From: a virus
DNA length: 24,393 bases
Strand: one strand, 5' to 3'
Virus record (IMG/VR): IMGVR_UViG_3300012964_000056
Span: 1-24,393 of that record
Shown piece after piece: positions 6,666 through 20,375 of this stretch (position 1 is its first letter; the number at the start of each line of letters is the position of its first letter). The notes beneath the pieces were generated by a model. That model saw nothing but the letters and a program-made list of their open reading frames with translations. It ran no database searches and was not told the DNA's origin. Both the position numbers and the translations under genes were made by a program.

Positions 6666-6902
6666 TTATTTCTCCTTCAAATCACAGTTGCATTTATCTA
6701 TTTTTCTATCTCTAGTGTCTTTTGGTGTGCAGCCACAAACAAAGGTGCAATAATTATTGGCACTTTTTATGCTGCAGAAATTCTTTTCAACTTCGTACAG
6801 TGTGCAATAATCATTAGTCTTTTTTGTCTCGCATGCGGTTAAGCCAATCAGGATCGGAGTTATTAATGCTATCCCTAATATTCTTTTCAATAACAGCATC
6901 AT
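6666..6902 (-). CDS. Outer-membrane lipoprotein, candidate o-spanin (Rz1-like)
   Basis: Lipoprotein of 78 residues that would be lipidated and sorted to the outer membrane, where o-spanins pair with an inner-membrane partner to fuse both membranes at lysis. The signal peptide is clear: MMLLLKR, a hydrophobic core, then the lipobox LTAC with Cys24 as the lipidated residue. The mature part has no Pro-rich tract, unlike lambda Rz1, but holds seven further cysteines (in YCTLY, FCS, YCTFVCGC and CNC). I chose the paired ATGs at 6902/6899, preceded by AGAGAGAAG; longer in-frame versions would bury the signal peptide. Its first 89 nt overlap the end of the Rz-like gene in another frame, an arrangement typical of Rz/Rz1 pairs. 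Other small lipoproteins are possible. Confidence 0.6.
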   Translation of the reverse strand: MMLLLKRILGIALITPILIGLTACETKKTNDYCTLYEVEKNFCSIKSANNYCTFVCGCTPKDTRDRKIDKCNCDLKEK

Positions 6903-7023
6903 TCTTCTCTCTTTCAATCTTGGCAATGATTTCAGATTTTCCGCTATCCTTGGAGATGCGAATGAGCAGCCATAGCAATACAGCAACTGTCGCACCTCCA
7001 AGTGATATGGAAAATATGCTCAC
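6814..7023 (-). CDS. Inner-membrane protein, candidate i-spanin (Rz-like)
   Basis: Protein of 69 residues with one N-terminal transmembrane segment (about residues 8-22, GGATVAVLLWLLIRI) followed by a charged helical stretch (KSEIIAKIEREKNDAVIEKN) ending in DPDWLNRMRDKK. This is the layout of a type II membrane i-spanin, anchored inside and reaching into the periplasm, though short for the class. The start is GTG immediately after the holin stop codon, with AAAGGTG about 10 nt upstream. Its 3' part overlaps the lipoprotein gene in a different frame, which together with the order holin, Rz-like, lipoprotein supports a spanin pair. Confidence 0.6.
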   Translation of the reverse strand: MSIFSISLGGATVAVLLWLLIRISKDSGKSEIIAKIEREKNDAVIEKNIRDSINNSDPDWLNRMRDKKD

Positions 7024-15899: not shown

Positions 15900-15926
15900 A
15901 TCATCTTCCTATCATCTTCCTATCAT
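15900..15926. repeat. 11-bp tandem repeat duplicating stop codon and Shine-Dalgarno
   Basis: TCATCTTCCTA occurs twice head to tail (15901-15911 and 15912-15922) followed by a partial third copy (TCAT). On the minus strand each unit reads TAGGAAGATGA. One copy supplies the tape-measure TGA stop and the other the AGGA ribosome-binding site before the gpM-like ATG. Confidence 0.8.
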
Positions 15927-17810
15927 CGAAGGATTCAAGCCAAAAGTGTCTCTCAAAGCTTGGTTGGACATTGTTCCTGAATTTCTTATATTAGTGCTAA
16001 CCATTTCATCAATCATGATGGCAATATTTCTGTTGCCAGAACCATCAACTGATTCTGCCACTTCAACTTTGGAGTTTGTGCTGTTATAAACATTCACAGT
16101 TGTTGCAGAACTTCCTATTTGTCCTATGCTTCCTCTTCCAGGAGGATTGAAAAGTTCTGGACCATTCTCACCAACAACATATGACATTCCCTGATATACG
16201 TCTCCACCACCAGCTCTGCCACCACCAAATATTCCGCCAAGAGAAGAGAATATGCTTCCACCCATGGAGCCAAGCATATCAGAAAGTGGACCAGTAATGG
16301 ATTGTCTAACTGCAATTCTTGCCAAATCACTCACGATTGAATTTGCCAAATCTTTAAAGCTAAGTTTGCCAGTGGTGACAAAGGATACTAAAGCGTCTTC
16401 AGCACCATGAAAAGCATTGGTAATTGATTTATCGACAAGAGAGCCGATGTCAGAGAATTCATCTTTCATGCGTAACAAGCCACGCATGAATCCTCCACTT
16501 ATGGTTTTGTCAGCTTCTAAAAATTTCATATTGAGTCTGTCCATGGCATCAGCATATTGATCTGCAGTTATTGCGCCAGAAGACAATAAGAAATTTAAAT
16601 CTTCTTGTGCAGTTTCATATTCTTTCATGTTTGGGACAAGACCCTTGAGAAGTTCTTTTTGTCTCTCGTATGCTTCTGTAACTGTAGTTAAAGCAATTGC
16701 TCCACCACCAGTGCCTGTTCTTGCTTCCATCTTTTCTGCAAATTTCTTGGCAGATGCTTCGGATTGCTCTCTGGATTTTCTTATGAATTCTTGCATCTTG
16801 CCTTCTGAATCCATTCCAGGAGTTGACATCAAATCTTCTTGCTTCTTCAATATCTCTTCATTTGCTGCTTCTTGAATTCCTTTTAGCAAATCCTTTTGTC
16901 CTGTGGCAAGAGCATACATCATTGCAAATCCACCACCAACTATGGTTGTTGATTGCTCGAATGCAGTTCGCACACCTTTGATGGCAACTGTTAATTTGTC
17001 TATGAACCAAGCAACAGAATCAATTGCATCTTTTGTTCTCTGTGCCCATATATCTGCACCATCAGCACTATCTATGAACCATAAAGCCATGTCTTCAATT
17101 ATTGGAGCAAGCTCTATTCCTACTTTGCCAACAATTCCTCCAATAGCTTGACCAACTCTGCCCATTGCATCTTTTGCTTGTTCTACTTTTGCAACATCAA
17201 CTCTATTTAAAGAAATTCCAAATTTATCATTGAATGCTGCAGCATCCTCAATCTTTCTGCCATATTCATCAAACACATTGACCATGCCACGCGCACCTCT
17301 GCCAAATATTTCCATGGCAGTTGTCATTTGCTGAGTTGGATTTTGTATTCTAGACAAAGCAGTTGCAATTCTATCGAATTGTTTGTCTGGAGACAAGTTG
17401 ATCAATTCTTTTGCACTAATGCCAATGGATTCAAAAGCTCTTTTTTGTGCATCGCTACCTTTTGCAGCTTCAACTAAATTCCTTTGCATGATAGTTAGAT
17501 TTGAGGTTAATGCTTCGATGCCAACTCCAGCTCCTCCAGCTACTGTTTTCATATTCACTAGAGCTTCATACGATATGCCAAAAGAATCAGCAAGTTTGGC
17601 ATTGGCATCTATCATCTCCATTTGCTGACTAATGATCCTCTCTGCAAATCTAACAGAGGCAAAGCTAACGTATGCAGCAAATGCTTTCTTGATAGTTGAG
17701 CTCATTCTTTCGGCAGTTGATTCAGTGTTTTTAAGCTTGGCATTAACCTTATCCAAGCCATCGCTGGCTGGTTTTGGATCTACAATAACTCTGATATTGA
17801 AATCAGTCAC
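15912..17810 (-). CDS. H-like: Tape-measure protein
   Basis: Protein of 632 residues that sets tail length and passes through the tube at DNA ejection. The N-terminal part has long helices and heptad-like spacing (DGLDKVNAKLKNTESTAERM), then the segment SFGISYEALVNMKTVAGGAG with LSRIQNPTQQMTTAMEIFGRG typical of TMP families. A hydrophobic stretch lies in the middle (STTIVGGGFAMMYALATG). The C-terminal region resembles the lambda tape-measure C-terminal domain (TGKLSFKDLANSIVSDLARI, then a Gly-rich GGIFGGGRAGGGDVYQG and VGENGPELFNPPGRG). The start is GTG within a GTGA overlap with the GT frame. At roughly 0.15 nm per residue, a length rule known from other siphoviruses, the tail would be near 95 nm. 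Confidence 0.92.
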   Translation of the reverse strand: MTDFNIRVIVDPKPASDGLDKVNAKLKNTESTAERMSSTIKKAFAAYVSFASVRFAERIISQQMEMIDANAKLADSFGISYEALVNMKTVAGGAGVGIEALTSNLTIMQRNLVEAAKGSDAQKRAFESIGISAKELINLSPDKQFDRIATALSRIQNPTQQMTTAMEIFGRGARGMVNVFDEYGRKIEDAAAFNDKFGISLNRVDVAKVEQAKDAMGRVGQAIGGIVGKVGIELAPIIEDMALWFIDSADGADIWAQRTKDAIDSVAWFIDKLTVAIKGVRTAFEQSTTIVGGGFAMMYALATGQKDLLKGIQEAANEEILKKQEDLMSTPGMDSEGKMQEFIRKSREQSEASAKKFAEKMEARTGTGGGAIALTTVTEAYERQKELLKGLVPNMKEYETAQEDLNFLLSSGAITADQYADAMDRLNMKFLEADKTISGGFMRGLLRMKDEFSDIGSLVDKSITNAFHGAEDALVSFVTTGKLSFKDLANSIVSDLARIAVRQSITGPLSDMLGSMGGSIFSSLGGIFGGGRAGGGDVYQGMSYVVGENGPELFNPPGRGSIGQIGSSATTVNVYNSTNSKVEVAESVDGSGNRNIAIMIDEMVSTNIRNSGTMSNQALRDTFGLNPSMIGR

Positions 17811-18145
17811 TGTTTATTATTCCTTTCCTGCTCTTTCCTGTGCCAATCAAGATAGAATGTGTCCATAGCTTTAATTATACTGATAAATAAATCAATAGTA
17901 AAGCTATCTAGGCAATGATATTGTGCATATAAAAGCATATCTCTCCAAGGAATTGGACCAAGAGACATACCAATCTGACGACATGTGCTCAATTCTGAAA
18001 ATGCTTTCATATAAAATGCATCGCCTGAAATTAAGATAGGCTCTTCAATTACCCAGTCTGGTAAAGGTTGCCCTCTCTCTTGGGAAGCTGCAACTACGAA
18101 TCCATCTCTCTGCCATCGCAACTCCCATTCCAGACGTTCTATTAG
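17807..18145 (-). CDS. GT-like: Tail assembly chaperone extension GT, made by -1 frameshifting
   Basis: The 112 codons that extend the upstream chaperone if ribosomes slip -1 at the A AAA AAC heptamer. The shifted frame reads LIERLEWELRWQRDGFVVAA and continues to IKAMDTFYLDWHRKEQERNN. It could only start on its own at a TTG (18121), without a convincing Shine-Dalgarno, which fits frameshift expression. The fusion (about 253 residues) would bind both the tape measure and tail-tube subunits, as in lambda gpG-T. Position directly upstream of the tape-measure gene is conserved for such pairs. The sequence contains helical and Trp-rich stretches but no other motif. Confidence 0.78.
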   Translation of the reverse strand, partial: LIERLEWELRWQRDGFVVAASQERGQPLPDWVIEEPILISGDAFYMKAFSELSTCRQIGMSLGPIPWRDMLLYAQYHCLDSFTIDLFISIIKAMDTFYLDWHRKEQERNNKQ

Positions 18146-18567
18146 TTTTTTGTTTCATCCTCAATATTCACAGATCCATTAGTGAAATTTACAGGATTAG
18201 CTGCAAAAATTCTAATCTCATCAAAAATGTAATTTGGCAAAGCATCAAGAAAAGCAGAAACATTTTCCTTGTTGAATTCAACTTCTGCACCATTAACATC
18301 GACAACATTCCATTCCTTAATAATGTGCTCTGCATAAAGCTTCTTATCATTGTTGCGATTTTCAATAATCATATCAGCAGTAACATTATTTACCTTGCCA
18401 CGAGATAACATTTTGCTTCTCTTTAATACAGCATTTAGATATGCTTTATTTGCATCTGTGGCAGGTGCAAGAGTCAAACACATGTCTCCCTCTAATTGAG
18501 AAAGCTCATATTTGACTAATGATGCTTCAGAAACATCAGCCTTTTTAATATTAGAAAAATCTACCAT
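18142..18567 (-). CDS. G-like: Tail assembly chaperone (gpG-like)
   Basis: Protein of 141 residues that coats the tape measure before tail-tube polymerisation. It follows the major tail protein and precedes the GT frame and the tape-measure gene, the position of lambda gpG. Sequence features: a charged start (MVDFSNIKKADVSEASLVKY), the segment LTLAPATDANKAYLNAVLKR, and KLYAEHIIKEWNVVDVNGAE, where 'W.v.d..G' recalls tail chaperones that resemble lambda gpG and DUF-type relatives. I chose the ATG at 18567 with GGAGGAATAAA just before it; a longer frame to 18615 would place translation through the hairpin. Its last sense codons form the slippery site ACA AAA AAC, next to the TAA stop. Confidence 0.78.
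   Translation of the reverse strand: MVDFSNIKKADVSEASLVKYELSQLEGDMCLTLAPATDANKAYLNAVLKRSKMLSRGKVNNVTADMIIENRNNDKKLYAEHIIKEWNVVDVNGAEVEFNKENVSAFLDALPNYIFDEIRIFAANPVNFTNGSVNIEDETKN
18145..18151 (-). promoter_or_regulatory. -1 ribosomal frameshift heptamer A AAA AAC
   Basis: The zero frame reads ACA AAA AAC TAA, so the heptamer X XXY YYZ is A AAA AAC with correct phasing, directly before the stop codon of the G-like gene. After a -1 slip the next codons are CTA ATA GAA and the frame stays open for 112 codons to the GT stop at 17807. The phase and position match G/GT-type programmed frameshifting. I do not see an obvious downstream pseudoknot. Confidence 0.75.
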
Positions 18568-18650: not shown

Positions 18651-20375
18651 TTAAGCAGGTATGTATGGGAACAGGGACACACCAATGCTAGTTCCGAGAA
18701 TTGCATCTTCAAATGCCTGACCAGTTAATGCAATTTTAACTGATTCATTCATTGTCAGATTCTTTGCTCCACCACCAAGAGTCATAGATGGAATATCTAC
18801 TAGTATAGCTCCATCATCATTCTTAATGGAGAAATCCATTGTAACAGTTTCATTATTTCTAATTGCATCTACTACTGCAGAGTTAGTGAAGATAAGTTCC
18901 GCAGTAACATTCACATCAAAGTTTCCAGCATTCATGAACACTGCACCCAGAGTGGCAAGAGCTTTTTCTGGAGACACATTATTCATTAATGTTACTGATA
19001 AGTTTTTGAAGTATGTACTGAGTCCTGTCTCATCGTATTTCTGCAATCTCAATCTTGCAATATCAGAAGAAGTTCCGAATGCAACCTTTTGAGTTGGAGC
19101 GAGAGCATTTGCAGCTGTTGAGTTTCTTGTAGTTGTTGGCAAGTCTGTATCCATACCTATGAAACCAAGCTGTAATGATGCCTTATCAGTCAAAGGAAGT
19201 GTGAATTGCATGCTATTGCAATAGTTTCCTTTAGCATATTCATACATTGGCACGCCAACTGCACTCAAGTCTGGCATAGCAAGTTCAAATGTGTAGGCTT
19301 GCTCTTTGTAGTCTGCATCATCTACTGATACGTTGCGAGCAAATCTGCCAAAATACAATTCGATGTCTTTGCCTGTTCCTGCATCTACTGTGAATGTCAA
19401 TGAGGTTTTATCCAGAGATAAAAGATTTGCTGCGATCGCAGTGATTCGTGCATATCCTGTATCTGCTGCTGTAGCGAATTTGCTTCCTGCTGTCGAGCCA
19501 CCAATCCAAATAGATTGACCAACCGTCAGACCAAGAGTTGTAAAGTCAAGAACAACAGAAGCCAGATCGCCACCAGACGTGATGGACAAATCTCCTGTGG
19601 CTGCTTTTCTACCAGCAATTGCCAGCGTTGCATTTCTGGTTGATGCTACTGTCTCTGCAGTCAAGCCAGTGATGTGGATGTTAGTTGCTATGGAGTTTGA
19701 TAACACAGTCTTGATACCATTGTTAGCTGCAACTGCAAATCCTCTTGCATACACTAAAGTATTTGCAGCAAGAGCACCACCAGAAGCAACAGTATAACCA
19801 CCAGAAGCTGGAGTTGTTGCAATTCCAAGTCCTGCAGGATCCACACTATAGCTACCTGCAGAAGTAATTGTGACTGTGGCAACTGCAGAACCAGAAAGAG
19901 TGGCAACAGTCAGAACTGCCTTTGTTCCTGTACCTGCAACTTCGAGTTTGTCACCTACTATGTATCCTGTACCACCAGCACTCACAACGGCTGTAGCAAC
20001 TGTGTACGGACCGGCACCAGCAGAAGTAATATCAAATGTTGCACCTGAACCTGCACCACCTGCAGTAACTGCTGTTGGCTTGAATTCTGATGTGCCATTG
20101 AATGTAGAGAAGGTAAATCCTTCAACGAAATCTGCAAAAGGCTCTATTGTCAAGTCTTGAGTGAACTCTACAGAACTATTCAAATCGCTGATTGTGCCTT
20201 TCTGTCTTTGTTTGCGTTTTGAGATAGGCTCTCTGGATACTGTTGAAATTGTCGAGCCATAAGTATTGATGGCATTTGGTTCTGTCTGCTTCCATTGAGG
20301 TGCAGCATCAATAGTTCCTGCTACTGTTTCTTTGGCATAATTTAAACCTACGTTATTGGTGACTACTCTACTCAT
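18651..20375 (-). CDS. V-like: Major tail (tube) protein with inserted beta domain
   Basis: Protein of 574 residues expected to form the tail tube. It is identified by its place between the tail terminator and the chaperone pair and by family-like sequence at the start (GLNYAKETVAGTIDAAPQWK, REPISKRKQRQKGT) and in the core (CNSMQFTLPLTDKASLQLGF, VTLMNNVSPEKALATLGAVF, TMDFSIKNDDG). A Gly/Ala/Thr-rich insert spans about residues 101-197, with GGTGYIVGDKLEVAGTGTKA, a motif seen in many phage surface domains. The insert may project outward. The gene starts with AGGGAGATAA before its ATG and is followed by two inverted repeats. Length is well above the 230-350 usual for simple tube proteins. Confidence 0.82.
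   Translation of the reverse strand: MSRVVTNNVGLNYAKETVAGTIDAAPQWKQTEPNAINTYGSTISTVSREPISKRKQRQKGTISDLNSSVEFTQDLTIEPFADFVEGFTFSTFNGTSEFKPTAVTAGGAGSGATFDITSAGAGPYTVATAVVSAGGTGYIVGDKLEVAGTGTKAVLTVATLSGSAVATVTITSAGSYSVDPAGLGIATTPASGGYTVASGGALAANTLVYARGFAVAANNGIKTVLSNSIATNIHITGLTAETVASTRNATLAIAGRKAATGDLSITSGGDLASVVLDFTTLGLTVGQSIWIGGSTAGSKFATAADTGYARITAIAANLLSLDKTSLTFTVDAGTGKDIELYFGRFARNVSVDDADYKEQAYTFELAMPDLSAVGVPMYEYAKGNYCNSMQFTLPLTDKASLQLGFIGMDTDLPTTTRNSTAANALAPTQKVAFGTSSDIARLRLQKYDETGLSTYFKNLSVTLMNNVSPEKALATLGAVFMNAGNFDVNVTAELIFTNSAVVDAIRNNETVTMDFSIKNDDGAILVDIPSMTLGGGAKNLTMNESVKIALTGQAFEDAILGTSIGVSLFPYIPA

Follow-up and report, generated by a model that had tools for sequence, protein, structure and literature searches.

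The tail chaperone genes of this uncultured phage are very probably joined by a -1 programmed frameshift of the kind known from lambda G/GT, as the sequence-only reading had proposed. Four lines of evidence support this assignment: the order of the genes, the family matches of both halves of the predicted fusion, a single protein family that spans the two, and the retention of an in-phase slippery heptamer at the junction in nearly all relatives. The frameshift type itself is well known; whether a conserved stop codon set flush against the heptamer aids slippage is the part worth following.

The chaperone genes and their junction

The window, that is, the whole virus record of 24,393 bases (38.5% G+C), carries on its minus strand a siphophage structural module with the major head protein, tail completion, tail terminator and tail tube proteins and the chaperone pair, followed by the tape measure, minor tail proteins and a J-like fibre. 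An overlapping pair of ORFs, G and T, sits between tail tube and tape measure (Table 1). The families matched by G and T, phrog_313 and phrog_3817, are annotated as tail assembly chaperone and tail chaperonin, respectively. Both halves also match phrog_8233 in order, G at its positions 8–133 and T at 140–255, and from these alignments phrog_8233 appears to be a family holding the G-T fusion. G shares 36-46% identity with its close relatives and T 49% with that of Shewanella phage S0112; no match to a solved structure was found by sequence, and no relative was found in bacterial genomes.

Table 1. Features of the G/T junction and its flanking genes (coordinates in the window)
Feature	Position	Strand	Details
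Major tail tube protein	18651..20375	-	Phage_tube_2 8e-19
G-like tail assembly chaperone ORF	18142..18567	-	ATG 18567, GGAGGA upstream; phrog_313 E=5e-15, phrog_8233
Internal Shine-Dalgarno-like GAGG	18159..18162	-	ends 7 nt upstream of heptamer; putative role
Slippery heptamer A AAA AAC (ACA AAA AAC)	18145..18151	-	0-frame phase
Tandem 0-frame stops TAA (18144-18142) and TAG (18141-18139)	18139..18144	-	end of G, flush 3' of heptamer
T domain, -1 frame (KLIERLEWELRW...)	17807..18148	-	ends TGA; Pfam Phage_TAC_18 4e-13, phrog_3817 1e-25, phrog_8233
TTG, sole early start-like codon of the T frame (disfavoured)	18119..18121	-	after K1 L2 R5 L6 E9; not conserved
Predicted imperfect stem-loop	18081..18127	-	17 nt downstream of heptamer; -23.2 kcal/mol, z=-2.1
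Tape-measure protein	15912..17810	-	Tape_meas_lam_C 1e-22

Read on the minus strand, the 0 frame at the end of G is GAT GAA ACA AAA AAC TAA TAG, confirming the heptamer in the phase first described, and the -1 frame from 18157 to 18139 is TGA AAC AAA AAA CTA ATA. The upstream limit of the -1 frame is the TGA at 18157-18155, and the overlap with the G frame is only 13 nt. Since this TGA closes the -1 frame, slippage is confined to about three codons, mostly taken up by the heptamer. The -1 frame runs on from the CTA at 18145 for 112 codons, and the stop that ends it (17809-17807) overlaps the tape-measure gene's GTG start at 17810; all of these numbers match the earlier description of the frame. 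Among 6,392 codons in the main ORFs of the minus strand, this is the only in-phase heptamer of the six canonical types scanned for, while X XXY YYZ strings of whatever kind occur in phase 25 times; about 0.01 of any kind would fall by chance in the approximately three overlap codons.

Under the frameshift reading, most ribosomes would stop at the TAA at 18144 to give G. A minority would shift one base backwards at A AAA AAC, either while AAA occupies the P site and AAC the A site or once translocation has brought the ribosome up to the stop; these would then read AAA AAA CTA ATA... in the -1 frame to produce a G-T fusion. Excess G would coat the tape-measure protein, as in lambda, and G-T would bring in the tail-tube subunit through its T part, with the G:GT ratio aiding tail assembly. 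Slippage itself, its rate and these protein roles are what we infer from the sequence, and no observation of the fusion protein was found for close relatives of the phage. In E. coli, slippage is much weaker on A AAA AAC than on A AAA AAG (PMC5009743); therefore, the frameshift level may be low. For HK97-like tail chaperone genes, 6–7% frameshifting was found in reporters (PMC3711429).

Outside the tail genes, early and structural genes lie on opposite strands, and the plus strand at 28-1092 encodes a DNA polymerase C-terminus (phrog_405), truncated by the contig edge. Downstream of the endolysin, two overlapping small ORFs on the minus strand (6666-6911 and 6814-7023) have no PHROG match; one has an N-terminal membrane helix and the other a lipobox-like LTAC, and by these features they look like a nested spanin pair.

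The junction in relatives and in known systems

The relatives gathered comprised 20 cultured phages and 80 uncultured viral loci, which gave 83 loci after de-duplication, window included, and 51 clusters when grouped at 70% T identity. Searches of viral contigs with single proteins returned no usable relative, and all 16 T proteins aligned together were too divergent to serve as a query; smaller alignments succeeded. Comparison for conservation of the heptamer had been suggested as a check, and its outcome is clear: an in-phase heptamer stands at the G/T junction in 82 of the 83 non-redundant loci, cultured phages among them. By type these are 50 AAAAAAC, 28 GGGAAAC, 2 GGGAAAG, 1 GGGAAAT and 1 AAAAAAT. 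Script-based scoring found 81 loci; the apparent exception, L053, proved to be a scoring artefact, as inspection located its GGGAAAC (included in the 28) 24 nt before the stop. A sequencing error or broken gene was rejected as the source of the junction, since many cultured phages, independent of one another, share it.

The only relative without a canonical heptamer is L038, the junction of which reads CTG GGG GAA TCC TAG (around 2490-2510), which may be a non-canonical slip site or reflect a sequence error. Relatives keeping both frames without the heptamer had been named as evidence that would count against frameshifting; this one locus alone is such a case, and only in part.

The closest protein relatives found, at 36-50% identity, are S0112, Pseudomonas phages RSP/KPP23 and Roseobacter phages RDJL1/2/6. 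All share A AAA AAC and the -1 T frame, although in the RDJL phages the stop lies 12 nt farther along and T is mostly missing or truncated in their records. G/GT frameshifting is a textbook case (for lambda, Levin 1993 and Xu 2004, as cited in PMC5009743). The window resembles lambda in the -1 direction, in having an X XXY YYZ string late in G, and in the location between tail tube and tape measure, the fusion being made at a low level in lambda. In lambda, however, the string is G GGA AAG, recovered in our control as GGGAAAG 15 nt before the G stop, whereas the T-like domain of the window is Phage_TAC_18. A stop-adjacent AAAAAAC has been published for gp12/gp13 of Acinetobacter phage Loki and also for IME_AB3 (PMC5313236). 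The same heptamer is there flush with the stop of the first tail chaperone in the same gene order, but these phages belong to another lineage and have an extra gene between T and tape measure; their frameshift is likewise a prediction (PMC5313236).

The flush stop and other candidate stimulators

Tests on the stop, the downstream RNA and the upstream element were all made on the same 51 clusters, with phylogeny ignored. The G stop is flush against the heptamer in 62 of the 81 non-redundant loci scored and in 38 of the 51 clusters. In the 46 clusters where AAAAAAC or GGGAAAC is followed by a CTN leucine codon, CTA accounts for 27 of the 46, against a 12% share of the CTN codons across these genes (binomial p about 1e-13, with clusters taken as independent, which overstates the significance). 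In the 0 frame CTA gives TAA or TAG, while CTG followed by A gives TGA. Given the CTA excess, the flush stop looks selected, and the comparison thus points to a stop that is apparently both conserved and under selection.

The 60-odd nt past the site are more stable than synonymous-codon shuffles (mean z −1.57, 19 of 51 clusters below −2), and folding energies there are also below those of other parts of these genes (Wilcoxon p about 1e-6). For the stem-loop predicted in the window, 4 of 200 shuffles were equally stable, z is -1.8 against synonymous shuffles, and the spacing from the heptamer exceeds the usual distance. Alignments of two groups gave neither a consensus structure nor convincing covariation, and a single conserved stimulator fold was rejected accordingly. 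In L075, L084, L095 and L099, a strong hairpin of each locus's own (GTTCTGTTCTAT...ATAGAACAGAAC) falls in almost the same position, about 8-50 nt past the heptamer, though the wider alignment has no consensus fold.

Upstream, complementarity to the anti-Shine-Dalgarno sequence shows a sharp peak 4–12 nt ahead of the heptamer, and GAGG occurs at exactly the offset seen in the window in 17 of 51 clusters. The excess over synonymous shuffles is weak (-4.9 vs -4.2 +/- 0.3 kcal/mol). The position of this candidate stimulator is striking, but the complementarity comes mostly from glutamate codons. For the window itself, GAGG, the predicted stem-loop and the flush stop are all plausible stimulators. 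E. coli dnaX also combines an upstream Shine-Dalgarno-like element, an A-rich heptamer and a downstream stem-loop (PMC5009743), although it is not homologous, shifts on A AAA AAG with about 50% frequency and has the shorter of its two products made by the shift.

It had been suggested that stop context may raise slippage instead of a pseudoknot. The first half of this suggestion gains from the conserved, apparently selected stop; the "instead of" does not, as downstream RNA structure is enriched too, and a stop replacing RNA structure as the stimulator is not supported by the folding comparison. The corresponding refinement of the frameshift reading, in which ribosomes with AAC in the P site would make the -1 slip while waiting at the TAA, and the rate would be set by stop context rather than RNA structure, is favoured by the prevalence of the flush stop and the CTA excess but opposed by the enriched structure. 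Stops close behind shift sites have precedents, as pea enation mosaic virus needs one 3 nt downstream for efficiency and some bacterial dnaX genes have a stop directly after the shift site (PMC5009743); for flush stops at bacterial -1 sites, literature searches yielded just this general review. However, RDJL-type, lambda and Erythrobacter phages do without a flush stop (theirs is 12-33 nt away), the commonest stop is TAA, normally an efficient terminator, and selection could favour a clean end of G instead. We regard this refinement as rather doubtful.

Where T begins, and what the junction implies

Frameshifting on the heptamer predicts a T that is read from the slip site onward, whereas T as a separate gene would be reinitiated at TTG 18121 after the G stop, the heptamer being incidental. 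The TTG lies 21 nt past the stop with purine-rich sequence ahead of it, and T is commonly annotated as a separate ORF in GenBank. Yet conservation of the -1-frame protein starts at the heptamer, ahead of any start: K is present in 51/51 clusters, L2 in 47/51 and L6 in 44/51. The K is dictated by the heptamer itself, so L2 and L6 are independent evidence and K is not. Across the 51 clusters, variation is biased to third codon positions of the -1 frame. Furthermore, 17 of 51 clusters have no ATG, GTG or TTG for at least 25 codons past the heptamer, and in S0112 the earliest possible T start is 46 codons downstream; independent initiation therefore cannot yield the conserved T in many relatives. 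In the window the TTG, nine codons into T, is the first start-like codon and lies past conserved residues, with ATG 18010 next, in agreement with the original remark that the frame has no good start. As many relatives also lack the TTG and the heptamer is so widely retained, independent initiation there was rejected and is very improbable.

Still less credible is RNA polymerase slippage on the A6 run, giving mRNAs of altered length that are translated in the standard way, although AAAAAA is a possible slippage tract and such slippage on runs of 9 A/T is documented in bacteria (PMC5009743). Six A is short, and this reading was rejected on account of the GGGAAAC that about a third of relatives have in place of AAAAAAC, with no six-base homopolymer but with the tandem-tRNA slip pattern and phase kept.

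A fusion is annotated in GenBank as a joined CDS for two Rhodobacter phages, RcSimone-Hastad and RcRudolph. Several public records of relatives leave T out or begin it 20–45 residues late. The S0112 and RSP records start T at internal codons, with about 38-46 residues lost, and those of RDJL Phi 2 and RDJL Phi 1 leave T out entirely, though the conserved part begins at the heptamer. For this branch, a useful annotation rule is to seek an A AAA AAC or a G GGA AAC whose last base adjoins the G stop.

Taken widely, the comparison supports the classic-frameshift route to tail chaperones in an uncultured phage. Tentatively, the heptamer-fused 0-frame stop in this siphophage branch may itself have been selected as part of the -1 frameshift signal, a proposal to which we would give well under an even chance. 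If true, termination and slippage would compete at one ribosome position, and the stop-flush layout poses that competition as a testable question.
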